Shown here: piece by piece, positions 6,643-30,971 of the stretch
Layout of the letters: each line of letters starts with the position of its first letter
Position numbering within the stretch: the stretch's first letter is position 1
Assembly: GCA_022821845.1 (NCBI GenBank)
Contig: JAJECT010000026.1
Span: 1 to 47,276, forward strand
From: Rhodothermales bacterium
Lineage (GTDB): Bacteria; Bacteroidota; Rhodothermia; Rhodothermales; VXPQ01
DNA length: 47,276 nt
Reading direction: 5' to 3'
Notes under the pieces: generated by a model
The model's input: only the letters and a program-made list of their open reading frames with translations
Told to the model about the DNA's origin: nothing
Databases searched by the model: none
Position numbers and translations under genes: made by a program

Positions 6643-8154
6643 TCATTCGGAAGCATAGCCATGCAGGAAATCGACCAGCAAACGAACCCCGAAACCGGTG
6701 CCGCCCTTCGGACGCCAGGGCAAGGCATGATGCAAAAACGACGGCCCGGCCAGGTCGATATGAATCCAGGGATAGTTCGTAAAATGCTCCAGAAACTTGG
6801 CGGCGGTGATGGACCCGGCTTCCCGGCGGCTGCTGATGTTTTGCAGGTCCGCCACCTCGCTCCGCATCAACTCGCCGTAATGCGGATACATGGGCAGGCG
6901 GTGCACCAGGTCCCCGGTGCGGCGACCCGCCTCTTCCATGGCCTGGAGCCGGGTTTCCGGGCGGGGCCTGTCGTTCGTCATGACGGCGGCCACTTCGGAG
7001 CCAAGCGCCACCACCTGGGCGCCCGTCAGGGTGGACAACTCGATCACCAGCGGCGGATCGTACGTAGCCGCCCAGGAAAGCGCGTCGGCAAGGATCATGC
7101 GGCCCTCGGCGTCGGTGTTCAGCACCTCCACCGTCTTGCCGGAATGCATCCGAACGACGTCCCCGGGCACGTAGGCGTTCTCGCCGGGGCGGTTGTCCGT
7201 AGCCGGGACCAGCCCCACCACATGCCGGGGAAAATCAAGGCGGGACAGCGCCGTCATGGCGCCCACGACCGCCGCCGCGCCCGCCATATCCGCTTTCATG
7301 TGGTCCATGGAATTTGCCGTGGGCTTGAGCGAAAGCCCGCCCGTATCGAACATCACGCCCTTGCCCACGAGCACGACGGGCGGGGCCTCGGGGGCATGGT
7401 CCGGCTTCCAGGTCATGGTGGTGAAGGTCGGCGGCTCCTGACTGCCCCGGTTCACCGCCAGGAGGCCCCCCATGCCCTCCTGCTCGATGCGGTCCTTCTC
7501 CCATATTTCCACGGAAAAGCCGTGCCGCTTGCCCAGGTCCGCAACCATGCCGGAAAAGGCCGTCGGCGACTTTTCGTCCGGGGAGATATTCACCAGGTCG
7601 CGGGCCGCCGCGACGGACGCCGCGAGGATGCGCCCGCGCTCCGCGCCCCGAAGCGCCTCGTCCGCATCCTCGCCGCCGACATGCACCACAATGCGCTCCA
7701 GCGAGGGGGTTTCCTTTTTCGCGGGGGCGGTCTTGTAGCGGGCGAAGCGGTAGGCGGACAGCATATACCCCTCCACCAGCGCCTGCGCGGCGGCGAACGC
7801 CCCTTCCTTGCCGTCCGGCGGGAGCGCAAGCCCCACGGAAGCGACGCCGTACTTCGCGGCGAGGCGTTCGGCGGCGGCGGCGGCCCGCCGCAACGATTCC
7901 AGGCCCGCCTTGCCAGACGGACCCAGGCCCACCAGCGCCAGCCGCCGGGCCTTGCCAGAGGGGGCGTACAGCAGCACGGCGGCGTCCGCCGAGCCATCGA
8001 AATCCGGCGCGGCGGCAAGCGTCGTATCGCCCGCCATCGAAGCCAGTTCGCCCAGGCGGGCGGCGGCGCGCTCCTCGTACGCCGGCGCAATCAGCAAATC
8101 CACGTCCAGCTCCGCAAGCGAAGCGGTCGCGACCGAAACATCTACAGAAAACAT
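6643..8154 (-). CDS. pepA: Leucyl aminopeptidase, M17 family
   Basis: This 503-residue cytoplasmic metallo-aminopeptidase removes N-terminal residues from peptides. The catalytic domain carries GKGVMFDTGGLSLKP (Lys265 and Asp270 are likely metal/catalytic residues), the second metal region MKADMAGAAAV (Asp289) and the M17 signature NTDAEGRMILADAL at 346-359. Residues 1-170 form the divergent N-terminal domain. The start ATG is 12 nt after the stop of the DHH gene, so it belongs to the same run of genes. It may share peptide use with the DPP-IV-type enzyme at the head of the block. Confidence 0.93.
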   Translation of the reverse strand: MFSVDVSVATASLAELDVDLLIAPAYEERAAARLGELASMAGDTTLAAAPDFDGSADAAVLLYAPSGKARRLALVGLGPSGKAGLESLRRAAAAAERLAAKYGVASVGLALPPDGKEGAFAAAQALVEGYMLSAYRFARYKTAPAKKETPSLERIVVHVGGEDADEALRGAERGRILAASVAAARDLVNISPDEKSPTAFSGMVADLGKRHGFSVEIWEKDRIEQEGMGGLLAVNRGSQEPPTFTTMTWKPDHAPEAPPVVLVGKGVMFDTGGLSLKPTANSMDHMKADMAGAAAVVGAMTALSRLDFPRHVVGLVPATDNRPGENAYVPGDVVRMHSGKTVEVLNTDAEGRMILADALSWAATYDPPLVIELSTLTGAQVVALGSEVAAVMTNDRPRPETRLQAMEEAGRRTGDLVHRLPMYPHYGELMRSEVADLQNISSRREAGSITAAKFLEHFTNYPWIHIDLAGPSFLHHALPWRPKGGTGFGVRLLVDFLHGYASE

Positions 8155-20156: not shown

Positions 20157-20193
20157 GGGGATTGTTGCAAGGACAAAGGGGGCTTGGCATTGA

Positions 20194-20697
20194 CTAATAA
20201 AGGTCGAACTTTATGCCTACCCTTAATTCAGGAAAAACATAGGGATCCTGAAATCCAAACCATGTTAGATCCGGTTCTAAAAAAAGAATCAGTTTATTCG
20301 GGTTATGCCAGTCAAACGTATACACTTCGAACGTCAGACCAAATGAAATGACGGCGGACGAATCAATACCTCCATACCCTATGTAAGGGCTCCATCTACG
20401 ATTGTAAAAATTATAAAATATGGAATAAAAAAGTTCAAAATCGGTAATTATCTGAAATGATTTATAGCGTATGCTCATTCCAAATGGAACAGGAATACCA
20501 TGCGCGTATTTCAGGGCGGAAAAATAGGTTCCTATTTCTATGTATTTTTGATTTTCGATAATATTTTCCTGACTTGAAGAAGCGTACGTATCTTCTTGCG
20601 CCTGGGCTGTATCAATGGAGCAAGGTGTAATTATAAATGCCAACAGCAGTATGCCGTAGCATATCTTGAAGAAGCGTGCGATCAGGAAGTCATACAT
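20194..20697 (-). CDS. Small exported outer-membrane-type protein, AT-rich gene
   Basis: I do not recognise a family. The 167-residue product has a signal peptide (MYDFLIARFFKICYGILLLAFI, cleavage near AQAQ at about 35). The rest alternates aromatic and polar residues (FYSIFYNFYNRRWSPYIGYG, LILFLEPDLTWFGF) and ends in a C-terminal aromatic (VGIKFDLY), as expected of a small beta-barrel. The ATG at 20695-20697 opens the signal peptide; a longer reading to 20793 would overlap the upstream gene. Base composition is clearly more AT-rich than the E1 and metB-type neighbours, and it converges on E1 with a 37-nt gap. It follows a similar gene by 47 nt, so the two look like one transcription unit. 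Confidence 0.65.
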   Translation of the reverse strand: MYDFLIARFFKICYGILLLAFIITPCSIDTAQAQEDTYASSSQENIIENQKYIEIGTYFSALKYAHGIPVPFGMSIRYKSFQIITDFELFYSIFYNFYNRRWSPYIGYGGIDSSAVISFGLTFEVYTFDWHNPNKLILFLEPDLTWFGFQDPYVFPELRVGIKFDLY

Positions 20698-20744
20698 GGC
20701 AGGGCGGGCGGTTGTGAAAGGGAGGATACAGGCAATAGGCATGC

Positions 20745-21440
20745 CTAAAACGGAAAATGAATTCCCCAGAATTTTATATCGCCTCCGGTACAAATGAAAT
20801 CTTTGTATTTACAAGGCGTGAAATATACTTCTATTTCATGAGACCATATGAGGCCCAATAGATTATACTCTACGCCAAGCCCGGAAGAAATGCCCAACCA
20901 GATTGATTTTCCGTTCGGGCGATCGGTTTTAAGCTCGACGCTCATTTCCGTTCCTTCGACGCATTGAGGAGACAAAGCAGCGCTTTGTATAGAATATTCG
21001 CCACAAAAATATCTTGTAAAATTAAATTTTTTGTTCCAGTGCCAAAAAACAGGTCCCCCATATACATACATATTTTTCCCATAATGATTATAACGCACAG
21101 TAAATCTAAGTATATTTTCGTTTTGATCGTCTGCCCAAGCAATATTTGTTTCATAAGCATCATATCGCACATTAAAAAATAAAATGGGATAGGGCATATT
21201 ATCATCTTCTGGTGAAAAAATCTCATCTTGTGACAAAAATGTATTACCAATACCATCATTCACAAATCGTGAAGAAAAATTAAAGCCGAATCGGTTTTTG
21301 ATAACAGGTTCTTGCTCAATTTTATTCATCGTATCCTGAGCGGTAGCCGAATCCGTAAACAACATAACATCAACAATTCCAATCAGGCAATAAAGCAAAG
21401 TCCAACCGGAGAACACGGAAATATGTTTTCTGAAAAGCAT
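20745..21440 (-). CDS. Exported outer-membrane-type protein, AT-rich gene
   Basis: No family is recognised. The 231-residue protein has a signal peptide (MLFRKHISVFSGWTLLYCLI..., cleavage near SATAQ at about 35). A beta-rich body follows, with many aromatics (RFGFNFSSRFVND, MYVYGGPVFWHW, SIWLGISSGLGVEYNLLG) and a terminal Phe (GIHFPF), pointing to an outer-membrane barrel of 8-10 strands. Two Cys pairs (CGEYS..QC and PCKYKDFIC) may form disulfides. The gene is strongly AT-rich, unlike the flanks. Its leader (21441-21510) has a small hairpin, CTGGAG at 21483-21488 pairing with CTCCAG at 21501-21506. Function unknown. Confidence 0.65.
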   Translation of the reverse strand: MLFRKHISVFSGWTLLYCLIGIVDVMLFTDSATAQDTMNKIEQEPVIKNRFGFNFSSRFVNDGIGNTFLSQDEIFSPEDDNMPYPILFFNVRYDAYETNIAWADDQNENILRFTVRYNHYGKNMYVYGGPVFWHWNKKFNFTRYFCGEYSIQSAALSPQCVEGTEMSVELKTDRPNGKSIWLGISSGLGVEYNLLGLIWSHEIEVYFTPCKYKDFICTGGDIKFWGIHFPF

Positions 21441-21569
21441 GGTAATCTAAATTTACTTGAGAAAAAGCATACGGCCCGTGTCCTGGAGATCGCCCGACAC
21501 CTCCAGCATACATAACAATTTATTCAAAAGCAAACCGTAAACCAAAAAAAACCTGACGTCAAAAACGCA

Positions 21570-21675
21570 AAATCTGGTCGCCGCCTGGCCCCTGCACAAA
21601 CACACCTAATATTTTTAGGCGCGCATTTTGCGCCCCTTAAAAATTAAGGCGGGGCATAAATAGCCGATAGAAATT
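21570..21675. repeat. Dispersed hairpin element, copy 2
   Basis: This copy aligns with 594-700 over its whole length. The hairpin core is 21605-21649 (CCTAATATTTTTAGG with CCTTAAAAATTAAGG) and has paired changes relative to copy 1 in the stem. It sits about 57 nt downstream of the stop of the cystathionine gamma-synthase-type gene (minus strand), in the same relation to a minus-strand gene end as copy 1. The 290-bp gap 21441-21730 otherwise holds the leader hairpin of the outer-membrane gene, a T-rich stretch near 21540-21560 and the tRNA-like fragment. Confidence 0.7.
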
Positions 21676-26909: not shown

Positions 26910-27758
26910 CTATTCCTCGCCGAATTCCCGGACGCGGAGGTTCCGGAACCATACGTCGTCCCCATGATCCTGGAGTACGATATGTCCGACGCGCCGGTCG
27001 GCGAATCCCTCGATATCGGCGTACTTGCTGGCGGCCAGAAGCGAATCGAAGCGCGGGCTGTCCAGGTCGTATTCGACCACAAGGGCGCCGTTCAGCCAAT
27101 GCTCCCCATGCATTTCCCGGAACACGATGCGGCTCTCGTTCCATTCTCCCACGGGGTTGAGCGCCTTGGCGTCCCCCGCCGGAATCATGTCGTACAACGC
27201 CCCGGCCCGATGGGACGGCAATTCCGCGTCGGGATGCCGCTCGTCGTCCAGCACCTGATATTCGAACCCAAGCGCGGCGTACCGCGGCACATGCGACGTG
27301 GACAATTCCTCGGAGACGTTATACTTGACCCCGCTGTTCGCCCCTTCGGCTACTTTCCATTCGAAAGCGAACGCGAAATCCCCGAACGTTTCCGTGGTCA
27401 TCAAGTCGCCGCCCACAAGCGGCTGCCCGTCCGCAGCAACCGGAACGTGCCCGGAAGCCACCTTCCGGATGGTCCCCTCCTCGACTTGCCAATGGCCTTC
27501 GGGGACCGCCTCCTGGCCAAGGCCAATCCATCCGTCGAAGGTTTCTCCGTCGAAAAGCGGGCGCCAATCGTCCGGGGGCAGGTCGGCGGAAACGTCTGCG
27601 TCCGCCTGCGCCGTGTGAACCGGGGATTCGGCTTCCGCGCCAGAGCACGCGGCAAGGACAAGGGCAAGCGTCAGGATCAGCGTCGTCGCCAGCATGGGAA
27701 GACGTTGCGGCGCAGCGAGTCTGGAGGCGGCGGCAAGGATCGAAAAGGCGCGGGGCAT
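26910..27758 (-). CDS. DUF1080 (3-keto-disaccharide hydrolase-type) lipoprotein
   Basis: This 282-residue exported protein has a lipoprotein signal (LILTLALVLAAC) and one DUF1080 beta-sandwich: WRPLFDGETFDGWIG, the FGDFAFAFEWKVAEGANSGVKY core, then GALYDMIPAGDAKALNPVGEWNESRIVF and HIVLQDHGDDVWFRNLRVREF at the end. The family includes glycoside-binding and 3-keto-glycoside hydrolase proteins that often sit beside Gfo/Idh oxidoreductases, as at 35079 here. The ATG at 27756-27758 is used, though an ATG at 27695 (MLATTLIL) gives a more compact signal peptide and is a real alternative. Confidence 0.85.
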   Translation of the reverse strand: MPRAFSILAAASRLAAPQRLPMLATTLILTLALVLAACSGAEAESPVHTAQADADVSADLPPDDWRPLFDGETFDGWIGLGQEAVPEGHWQVEEGTIRKVASGHVPVAADGQPLVGGDLMTTETFGDFAFAFEWKVAEGANSGVKYNVSEELSTSHVPRYAALGFEYQVLDDERHPDAELPSHRAGALYDMIPAGDAKALNPVGEWNESRIVFREMHGEHWLNGALVVEYDLDSPRFDSLLAASKYADIEGFADRRVGHIVLQDHGDDVWFRNLRVREFGEE

Positions 27759-27868
27759 AACGGTAATGAGCGAATGGGTACGGAACGGGTTTGCGGCGCG
27801 GCGGCCTGCGGAATGTGAAATCTACTTTTTCCGGGGAGGATGTGCAAGGGGGGAGCTTTCTCGCGCCG

Positions 27869-29557
27869 CTACGTTTCGGGCGGGCGAGGATTGAGCAATG
27901 AGGAAATGCTGTCAAGCTTCTCGCATATCTCCGGGTGGATTTCGTCTTGTTTCATAGCGGAAGCCAAGAGATATAACTCCTTTTTCGGGGTGCTCCTGCC
28001 CAGTTTTTCGAATAAAGGCGCAAGAAATTCATCGCTTGCCTTAATACGCACGAGCGAAACGTGATCCCCAAAGAGGTCAGTCCCTGGCGGTACATGACGC
28101 CAGAATTCGTCATCGACCCGGGAGTGCATCAACGGAAAATCAGCGAATCGAAATCGTTTGATAGCCTCTGGATGCAAAAGGTAATTCTCAATTTCGTAGC
28201 GACGCCAACGCAGAATAAGCAAGCCCGCTTTTTGCATCTCCATGTCCGGCTCGTCGCGATTGTCTCCATCAAGCAAGCAAAGCGCGCGCAAATCAGGACA
28301 AACCGCCCGCATGGCAAAGAAATGCGCCTTGGCTTCGTTGAGTTTCCTGCCGCCAAGCACATGGACCCAAGGGCGTCCGAAGAAGCGTTGGGCCGGGTGA
28401 TCAAGTATGCGCGCCCACTCGCGCAGAATGCGCTCGTCGGCCTCGCTTTCCACATAAAGTGCGGCCCCAATTTCCTGGCCTAATAGCAGGTCCGTGGTGG
28501 TAATGCGCTTGAGCGCTTCGCGGAGTCGGTCGCGCTCGGTTTTGTCGGCAAGGGGCCGAGGCGCCCGACCAAAGAAACCAAGTACCCGTTCCGGCTCCGT
28601 TGAATCGAGAATAACTTCGGAGTGCGTTGCAAGAATGACTTGTCCTCTGCGCTCGTGGGCGACTTTCCGAACGAGATCGTACACTTGCCGTTGTAAAATA
28701 ATGTGCTGGTGGGCGTCTGGCTCGTCGAGCAACATTACCGTGGCGGGACGGGCGTACAAGAAGGCGAGCAGCAGAATCACTTGCAGCGTCCCGCTGCCGG
28801 CGTTTGAAAGATCCAGGGGCCGGGTGTGTCCCGGTTCCCGATATTCGCATACGATGTAAGGTTGGGCCGGCGAATAATTCGGCTTTATCAGTTCGATGCG
28901 AAAGAGATCGTTGACATGTCCCGCAAGCGCTGGCCAGTTTTTCTCGTCGTTGCTTGCGGCGACTTCCAGGAGAAGATTCCGCAGGATATCGCCCGGTCGT
29001 CCCTGGCCGATGAGCATATCTTGCATGCCCCGATCCCGGCGAGGCTCGTCGCGATCAATACCCGATAGAGGAGGTACATGCACAATGGAAAGATCACGGG
29101 CTCCCTTTGGAGGAAAGGCGCGTATCTCTTCGCGGCCAAGACTTTTTGCATTTTGGGGCCGGGCGTGAATCAACTCGGGGTTGCTATACTGGAGCTCGAG
29201 TCCGCATGTCCACGACGTATCGTTCGTTTTCCCTTCCACGACGATTTCGATCAACCGCCGCGCTCCGGACATGCCGGCGGGACCCGTTACTTTCCGGTCT
29301 TCCCACAGGAGATTCATTTCGCGGAGCGGAACCGCGGTGATATCGGCGCACGGAATAGCCACGCCCGAACGCTCGACGGCCCTTCCGCCCGCCCGTTGGG
29401 CAACCCAGCGGTCAAGCACAAACTTCCAAAGCGATATGGCCTGGAGCAGCGTTGATTTGCCCGCATTATTCGGCCCGGCAAGCACAACGGATTCCGCAAG
29501 GTCGAATTCCTGTTCGCGGAAACGCTTGAAGTTCCGAATCGTCAGTTTCTTGAGCAT
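27869..29557 (-). CDS. AAA ATPase with C-terminal TOPRIM-like domain (OLD/AbiLii-type, defence-like)
   Basis: The 562-residue protein has an SMC/ABC-like ATPase half (1-365): Walker A GPNNAGKSTLLQ (28-39), a signature-like LSNAGSGTLQVILLL, Walker B VMLLDEPDAHQH and the H-loop ILATHSEVI. Its C-terminal part (366-562) carries ALYVESEADERIL (the TOPRIM glutamate about 370), LCLLDGDNRDE (the acidic DxD about 430) and RYEIENYLLHPEAI. This is the plan of OLD-family nucleases and of fused AAA15-DUF4435 proteins. The ATG at 29555-29557 is used. The coding sequence looks less GC-rich than the flanks. No UvrD-type helicase (Gabija) or separate TOPRIM partner is adjacent. It probably acts in phage or DNA-damage defence; this is inference. 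Confidence 0.8.
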   Translation of the reverse strand: MLKKLTIRNFKRFREQEFDLAESVVLAGPNNAGKSTLLQAISLWKFVLDRWVAQRAGGRAVERSGVAIPCADITAVPLREMNLLWEDRKVTGPAGMSGARRLIEIVVEGKTNDTSWTCGLELQYSNPELIHARPQNAKSLGREEIRAFPPKGARDLSIVHVPPLSGIDRDEPRRDRGMQDMLIGQGRPGDILRNLLLEVAASNDEKNWPALAGHVNDLFRIELIKPNYSPAQPYIVCEYREPGHTRPLDLSNAGSGTLQVILLLAFLYARPATVMLLDEPDAHQHIILQRQVYDLVRKVAHERRGQVILATHSEVILDSTEPERVLGFFGRAPRPLADKTERDRLREALKRITTTDLLLGQEIGAALYVESEADERILREWARILDHPAQRFFGRPWVHVLGGRKLNEAKAHFFAMRAVCPDLRALCLLDGDNRDEPDMEMQKAGLLILRWRRYEIENYLLHPEAIKRFRFADFPLMHSRVDDEFWRHVPPGTDLFGDHVSLVRIKASDEFLAPLFEKLGRSTPKKELYLLASAMKQDEIHPEICEKLDSISSLLNPRPPET

Positions 29558-29675
29558 TACGATGTCCTGTTTGGCGCCGCCAGCAGCATGGCGTCGAGCA
29601 GGCGTTTTGCGTTGCACCCTTTAGGATAGAACGCGGAGAGCATGTTTGCAAGTCGGAGAAAATCAGCCCCACCCC

Positions 29676-30971
29676 TCAAAACCCGAAAACCTCCGGGAGC
29701 CACAAGCTGAGGCCCGGCACGTAGGTAACGATCATAAGCGCAAGAATCATGGCGACGTAAAGCGGCATAAGCGGCCGGATCGCCCGCGTAATGGGCACCC
29801 CCGCCACGCTGCACCCTACGAACAGCACGGTCCCTACGGGCGGCGTGCATATGCCTACGCAGAGATTCAGGACGATCACGACGCCGAAATGCACAGGATC
29901 CATCCCGAGCGCCGTAACGATGGGCAGGAAAATGGGCGTGAAAATAAGCACGGCGGGCGTAATGTCCATGAAGGTCCCCACGCACAGCAGCACAAGATTG
30001 ATGATCAGCAGAATGACGATGGGACTGTCGCTGAGCGCAACGAGCGTCGAAGCCACATTCTGGGGAATATTCTCGTAGGACATGGCCCAGGAAAGCCCCA
30101 TGGACGTGCCGACCAGCAGCATCACGACGGCGGTCGTGGAGGCGGACTGAAGCAAGATGGACGGCAAATCCTTCAGGGAAATTTCGCGGTACGACAGGGC
30201 CAGCGCCAGGGCGTAGACCACCGCCACCGCGCTTGCTTCGGTAGCCGTAAAAACGCCCGCCACAATGCCCCCGATCACCACGAACAGCAGAAAAAGGCTT
30301 GGAAGCGCGTCCAGGAATTTCCGCGCGGCGACGCGGGCGCGCACGCGATCCGAACGAGCGTATTTTCTGCGCCAGGCAATGAAGCCCGCCACCGCCATCA
30401 GGGCAAGACCCGTCAGAATGCCGGGCAGATAGCCCGCCAGAAAGAGCGCGGCGATGGACGCCCCGCCGCTCGCCAGCGAATACACGATGAGAATGTTGCT
30501 GGGCGGAATGACCAGGCCGGTGGTGGCCGCCGCAATGTTCACCGCGGCGCCGTACCCCTTGTCGTACCCGTCTTTTTCCATGCGCGGCGCCATGACGCCC
30601 CCCACGGCGGACGCCGCCGCCACCGCCGAGCCGGAAATCGCCCCGAAAAACATGGCGGCGACAATATTCACATGGGCCAGCGCGCCGGGCAACATGCCCA
30701 CCAGGCTTTTGGCGAAATCGATCAGGCGACGCGCAATGCCGCCCCGGTTCATGATCTGGCCCGCAAGAATAAAGAAGGGGATGGCCAGCAGCGCAAAACT
30801 GTCCAGCCCGGTGGCCATGCGCTGGGCGGCGGTCGTCAGGGCCGGACCGGGCGGAATGCTCAGCAGCAACGTGCACGCCGTCGCGATCCCGATACTGAAC
30901 GCCACGGGCACGCCGACGAGGAGCAACGCCAGAAAAACGACCGCCAGTATGAATACGCCTGCCAGTTCCAT
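29676..30971 (-). CDS. dctM: TRAP transporter large permease (DctM)
   Basis: This 431-residue protein has about 12 helices and the DctM look: FSIGIATACTLLLSIPPGPALTTAAQRMATGLDSFALLAIPFFILAG at the N-terminal end, MNRGGIARRLIDFAKSLVG, and GTFMDITPAVLIFTPIFLPI with VNLCVGICTPPVGT-like ending (here LNLCVGICTPPVGTVLFVG). It forms the Na+-driven membrane pump of a TRAP transporter with the small permease, whose stop is 3 nt upstream. The ligand is probably an organic acid or a sugar acid. It is the last gene of the trio. Confidence 0.92.
   Translation of the reverse strand: MELAGVFILAVVFLALLLVGVPVAFSIGIATACTLLLSIPPGPALTTAAQRMATGLDSFALLAIPFFILAGQIMNRGGIARRLIDFAKSLVGMLPGALAHVNIVAAMFFGAISGSAVAAASAVGGVMAPRMEKDGYDKGYGAAVNIAAATTGLVIPPSNILIVYSLASGGASIAALFLAGYLPGILTGLALMAVAGFIAWRRKYARSDRVRARVAARKFLDALPSLFLLFVVIGGIVAGVFTATEASAVAVVYALALALSYREISLKDLPSILLQSASTTAVVMLLVGTSMGLSWAMSYENIPQNVASTLVALSDSPIVILLIINLVLLCVGTFMDITPAVLIFTPIFLPIVTALGMDPVHFGVVIVLNLCVGICTPPVGTVLFVGCSVAGVPITRAIRPLMPLYVAMILALMIVTYVPGLSLWLPEVFGF

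Follow-up and report, generated by a model that had tools for sequence, protein, structure and literature searches.

A predicted single-chain AriAB-like ATPase-TOPRIM protein encoded behind an hmaB relic at an exchange site of a Rhodothermales genome

PARIS, made of AriA and AriB or of a fused AriAB (class 4 OLD), combines an ABC ATPase with a DUF4435-type TOPRIM. The ATPase is sensor and cage, the TOPRIM is a two-metal nuclease, a phage product is the trigger and growth arrest the outcome (PMC9122126, PMC12409363); mutation of the catalytic glutamate of AriB, E26, abolishes tRNA cleavage (PMC12409363). OLD classes 1–5 and further uncharacterised clades have already been described (PMC12796447), and TOPRIM-linked OLD ATPases are on record as backup effectors in BREX and Hma-like (BR) systems (PMC12839542), in an article whose main text contains neither "cassette" nor "recombination". 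The gene described here comes from a Rhodothermales bacterium and lies in a 47,276-nt stretch of contig JAJECT010000026.1, hereafter the window.

The gene occupies 27869..29557 on the reverse strand, as do all window features located below that are given a role, and encodes 562 residues from an ATG at 29557; an in-frame GTG upstream would lengthen the frame to 582 residues, and relatives start at the ATG. No promoter of its own scored above chance. The frame is unbroken and has every ABC-ATPase motif as well as a TOPRIM domain towards the C-terminus. The N-terminal ABC ATPase, placed at residues 1–350 by sequence and model and matched by Pfam AAA_21 (81.8 bits) and AAA_15 (80.5), carries Walker A GPNNAGKS (residues 28–35, 29453..29476), the ABC signature SNAGSGTLQ (residues 251–259, 28781..28807, with G256 and Q259 invariant), the Walker B/D-loop LLDEPDAHQH (residues 276–285, 28703..28732) and the H-switch ATHS (residues 310–313, 28619..28630). 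It is followed by an AriB/DUF4435-type TOPRIM core (residues ~364–470, 28148..28468) with YVESEADE (E370, D374), LLDGDN (D430, D432) and RYEIENYLL (E457, N458), and, in AF2 models, by a C-terminal helical tail (residues ~471–562, 27872..28147). G28, G33, K34, D278, E279, H283, H312, E370, D374, D430 and E457 are invariant in alignments of 21 relatives, or 37 for the C-terminal set. A sequence-only reading of this DNA had listed the Walker A, Walker B and three TOPRIM motifs and proposed an SMC/ABC-type ATPase joined to a TOPRIM-like C-terminus in one chain; all five are indeed present and conserved across the family of 21–37 members, and the two halves can now be named as an OLD-superfamily ATPase and an AriB/DUF4435-type TOPRIM. 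The second aspartate of the DxD motif, D432, is kept in the close family and gone in several paralogues: L002 and L009–L011 retain the equivalents of E370 and D430 and have lost this residue (FDRLD in L002, LDQLQ in another case), which possibly alters their metal site or substrate.

The profile and structure comparisons with OLD, GajA and AriA/AriB that the same reading had proposed agree in placing the TOPRIM with AriB/DUF4435. The AF2 model had a pLDDT of 84.4 over the whole protein, and residues 350–562 modelled alone reached 91.2 with a pTM of 0.88. In structure comparison the modelled C-terminal domain has AriB as its best match (8ux9_A, Z 11.2, 184 residues aligned, rmsd 4.3; 8v46_D, Z 10.6), against Z 9.5–9.8 for OLD C-terminal regions and ~7 for GajA; the lead over OLD is small, 0.8–1.4 Z, and one AriB row is level with OLD. 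Profile-profile alignment by hhalign gave 94.7% and E 5.7e-8 against nine DUF4435 proteins, compared with 62% and E 7e-5 against classical OLD TOPRIMs, and the invariant glutamate of the DUF4435 profile, aligned with E370, is at the position of AriB E26. The connection to AriB was made through DUF4435 as an intermediate and through fold comparison; AriB was not among the hits when the C-terminal alignment was run as a profile against PDB sequences. The ATPase half has its best fold matches in PtuA (Z ~20), SMC heads and AriA (8v46_B, Z 16.4). In a tree of ATPase parts, whose deep branches are weakly supported and most of whose comparison rows belong to a single phylum (one row, L090, labelled fused AriA by length alone), the family forms its own clade (99/96), outside the AriA, OLD and HEC-01A samples.

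How far do these results separate the enzyme from known OLD-type and PARIS proteins? An enzyme like class 1 OLD (P2 Old; Ts, Xcc and Bp OLD) or Gabija GajA, in which the TOPRIM would cut or nick DNA after ATPase gating, without tRNA, has the same one-chain layout, stands alone as this gene does, has a C-terminal fold match of Z 7–10 and appears among the whole-model Foldseek matches (OLD 6p74 and GajA); moreover, the family lies nearer OLD than AriA in the ATPase tree, with modest deep support. I nevertheless regard this identity as unlikely: at E<=1 the window protein has no match to PF20469 (OLD-like_TOPRIM), which is also outside the 25 most frequent families of 21 members, the profile-profile score is below that for DUF4435, TOPRIM motif III reads IENYL, with the IENY of AriB/DUF4435 proteins, and Walker B is DEP, as in AriA rows, rather than the EEP of most sampled OLD proteins. 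GajA itself shares the OLD ATPase-TOPRIM architecture, but its structural match is the weaker one and, just as the sequence-only reading had it, no helicase partner (GajB) adjoins; the immediate neighbours are metabolic or transport genes. Canonical fused PARIS, which would sense Ocr-like proteins and cleave tRNA-Lys, is more doubtful still. The PADLOC AriAB profile scores 69.7 bits, the TOPRIM is AriB-like, with the catalytic glutamate and an EN(Y/F) motif, and two fused AriAB-like proteins, L150 and L151, share an H(L/I)EN motif; PADLOC scores for AriA, GajA, PtuA and NsnB were set aside as identifiers, being ATPase-driven and non-discriminating. Yet the curated cut-off of PF14491 (DUF4435) is not reached, the window protein having no match at E<=1 and only 2 of 21 family members any (best E 0.13), the ATPase clade is separate from AriA, BLASTP to L150 and L151 gives short matches only (E ~1e-5), and the family is found with Hma, GmrSD or DUF433 genes or alone. 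Because the DUF4435 score is below cut-off and the ATPase clade stands apart, the protein is best described, as sequence and models have it, as a compact single-chain AriAB-like variant of the OLD superfamily in a distinct clade rather than as a filed PARIS member. The idea of a short fused AriAB thus survives for the AriB-type TOPRIM and the length (562 residues against open frames of 612–647 in L150 and L151), and fails for the DUF4435 cut-off and the ATPase, whose clade is not that of AriA.

The gene differs in composition from its surroundings, as the sequence-only reading had noted: its GC content is 56.2%, versus 62.7% and 64.0% in two neighbours, and its GC3 is 0.61 versus 0.76–0.80. 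Full-length relatives at 71–76% identity occur in Acidobacteria, Dehalococcoidia, Gemmatimonadaceae, Limisphaera and the planctomycete Phycisphaera, and others at 58–61% in Gemmatimonadota, while within the host's own order the gene is sporadic. Since its GC3 departs from that of its neighbours and relatives at 71–76% identity are spread over five phyla, the gene is judged foreign to its host. Carriage by phages or plasmids was not borne out: viral contigs and phage records yielded no member of the family, and plasmid matches have only 23–28% identity over most of the chain, with one short ATPase stretch at 37%.

The insertion point is defined by the upstream TRAP transporter DctM gene (29676..30971) and the downstream 3-keto-disaccharide hydrolase (DUF1080) gene (26910..27758), both conserved in congeners. 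The interval between them was compared in five congeners, G001–G005, and all five lack the gene. G001 and G005 have an unrelated ATPase plus a small partner gene, a HEC-01-like pair (HEC-01A at 164 bits and Pfam DUF4276 in G001; the G005 pair assigned by similarity to the G001 copy and by the ATPase tree). G002 and G004 have the uronate isomerase gene uxaC, recognised by Pfam UxaC in G002 and by an identical reading-frame start in G004, and G003 has no such gene, with 284 bp between the two matched flanks. Relative to G001, a segment at 27853..29545 (left edge approximate, 29514–29545) has no alignable homology, between flanks 95–96% identical; homology fades in the first codons of the gene and returns ~16 nt beyond its stop codon. 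Like the HEC-01A genes, the window protein starts with MLKKLT, whereas its close relatives begin MI, and the window gene may have replaced a HEC-01 pair through crossing over in these conserved first codons. Ten neighbouring proteins had no PADLOC match, which bears out, for these ten, the earlier remark that no second defence gene adjoins; Pfam assigns nine of the ten to metabolic, transport or TPR proteins. Elsewhere in the window, positions 20160–21660 have ~39–45% GC between genes of ~62% GC and hold no confident gene; the one frame tested, at 20197–20793, has no match in Pfam or PADLOC.

Between the TRAP stop and the gene start, the bases encode ADFLRLANMLSAFYPKGCNAKRLLDAMLLAAPNRTS*, a 33-codon relic of the C-terminus of HmaB, a DUF1156 methyltransferase (29572..29670; 75.8% identity to the HmaB tail of relative L043, E 5e-11). 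The relic's frame stays open up to a stop codon overlapping the start codon of the ATPase gene (TAATG, 29559–29555). Matching tails in plasmid records are mostly annotated as DUF1156 protein. The same scar precedes HEC-01A in G001, and a shorter, doubtful one (E 0.05) was seen in relative L038. The Hma loci of the host genome (contigs C41 and C17) were discarded as a source: their HmaB is of another subtype, and apart from the relic nothing in the genome matches this tail type. The label "solitary" is misleading: an hmaB relic precedes the gene, the site is one of exchange, and close relatives lie within Hma operons. The gene appears from its sequence context to be solitary only by displacement. 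The sequence-only reading, which had used that label, holds insofar as no intact defence gene was found among the tested neighbours.

The site also bears on two further identities. A housekeeping RecF/SMC-like repair ATPase would fit the AAA_15 and AAA_21 matches, which overlap SMC and RecF profiles, but is hardly credible for a gene with foreign codon use, at an exchange site, sporadic in the order and with defence genes beside its relatives; a housekeeping orthologue at the same locus in all relatives, which the sequence-only reading had named as grounds against its own proposal, is contradicted by the locus itself, which is without the gene in 5/5 congeners. That the gene is instead a decaying passenger, without present function and dragged in with the hmaB scrap, is improbable. 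In its favour, only a remnant of hmaB is left, and the genome gave no full Hma genes of that subtype; the ATPase-TOPRIM frame, by contrast, is intact with every catalytic residue, and the family is conserved over phyla.

Two relatives from two other phyla, L043 and L044, have the family gene between hmaB and hmaC, with the hmaB 3' end directly repeated next to it, and these were the only two such cases seen. In L043 the order is HmaB, the family gene, a repeat of the hmaB end (247 bp, 98%), a HEC-01-type ATPase, a DUF4276 gene and HmaC. In L044 it is HmaB, HEC-01A/B, a second HEC-01A-type ATPase with an hmaC-head and hmaB-tail fragment in front, a 211-bp hmaB tail (89%), the family gene and HmaC. 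Here the copy of the hmaC 5' end (L044:4353-4432 and 7689-7768; 90%, 80 bp) lies in the embedded region and adjoins the hmaB-tail fragment, a joint that looks like the trace of operon-operon recombination. A chimeric frame in the same locus (L044:5708-5998) fuses the N-terminal ~17 residues of a DUF4276-like protein to the hmaB tail, and is probably the truncation scar of an earlier cassette. This tail type occurs on an intact hmaB in seven genomes of the host's order (loci L203–L209). In six, another ATPase frame, of 440–453 residues and MKEITLENFRCF type, starts 8–17 nt after the stop, and for the seventh no frame was reported, though the DNA past the stop begins similarly. Given these 6/7 loci and the arrangement in L043 and L044, the hmaB tail of this subtype is, among the loci seen, normally followed at once by an ATPase gene, and tail copies mark where stacked cassettes join. 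In the phylum's divergent Hma loci (L183–L201) there are a few other internal repeats but no tail repeats of the L043/L044 kind, and the repeat rule is therefore shown for the L043/L044 subtype only. In L043 and L044 the family gene shares the hmaB–hmaC slot with the Hma-embedded candidates HEC-01A/B and the BREX-related backup effectors, and a HEC-01-like pair alternates with the window gene at one site; unlike these, the window protein is a single chain, and its copy lies outside any Hma operon, behind an hmaB tail only.

Other relatives also keep company with defence genes. The host genome has two paralogues (34–38% identity): the one at 38% adjoins a Septu-type PtuA/PtuB pair (L141:7267-9220, contig C45), and the other, L003 (L142, contig C36), shares an operon with genes for a type III restriction-like helicase and for a DNA methyltransferase. 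A GmrSD gene precedes a further relative, L046, and its end overlaps the L046 start. Close relatives L038, L040, L041 and L042, among others, had no recognised defence gene next door. Near L003 lies a 1104-residue RNase H-like/helicase protein with similarity to MkoA, and directly before relative L039, overlapping its start by 4 nt, is a DUF433 gene (L039:5762-6004), possibly a regulator or antitoxin.

By analogy with the described systems, a defence role is probable, and the proposal of an immune nuclease is strengthened by these Septu, type III R-M-like, GmrSD and Hma neighbours. I consider it likely that the gene is an Hma-embedded, phage-triggered nuclease cassette now living alone, probably abortive and possibly a tRNase. 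On the PARIS model, its ATPase would oligomerise and keep its own TOPRIM inactive while sensing infection, perhaps, like PARIS, through an anti-restriction protein with which the phage disables the Hma or restriction layer. An ATP-dependent rearrangement would free the TOPRIM, which would then cut host nucleic acid by a two-metal mechanism (tRNA, by analogy, likelier than DNA), and growth would stop before the phage matures. The gene would have arrived as a cassette of the hmaB–hmaC slot, with the hmaB tail and the common first codons of these ATPase genes serving as recombination arms.

Since TOPRIM-linked OLD ATPases have been described in BREX and BR systems (PMC12839542), the embedded effector role is not new, and neither is an AriAB-like enzyme; the hmaB-tail scar and the mode of gene travel that it implies were less expected. 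A tentative hypothesis, to which I give somewhat less than an even chance, is that the hmaB 3' end acts as a loading dock, where homologous recombination between tail copies (and conserved first ATPase codons) adds, stacks and exchanges OLD-type ATPase effector cassettes, each bringing a new tail, and that cassettes leaving with their tail seed single-gene defence sites. The hmaB-tail repeats, one pair of them 98% identical, are physical scars that make this swap route directly testable, and the compact one-chain protein is a handy subject for work on the cis gating of a TOPRIM by its OLD ATPase. A lonely defence gene is thereby linked to the multi-gene, BREX-related Hma system, the apparent source of such cassettes, and the hmaB scrap before it suggests that defence weapons travel as swappable cassettes. 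If true, the loading dock would account for at least part of the "solitary" OLD/AriAB-like genes.
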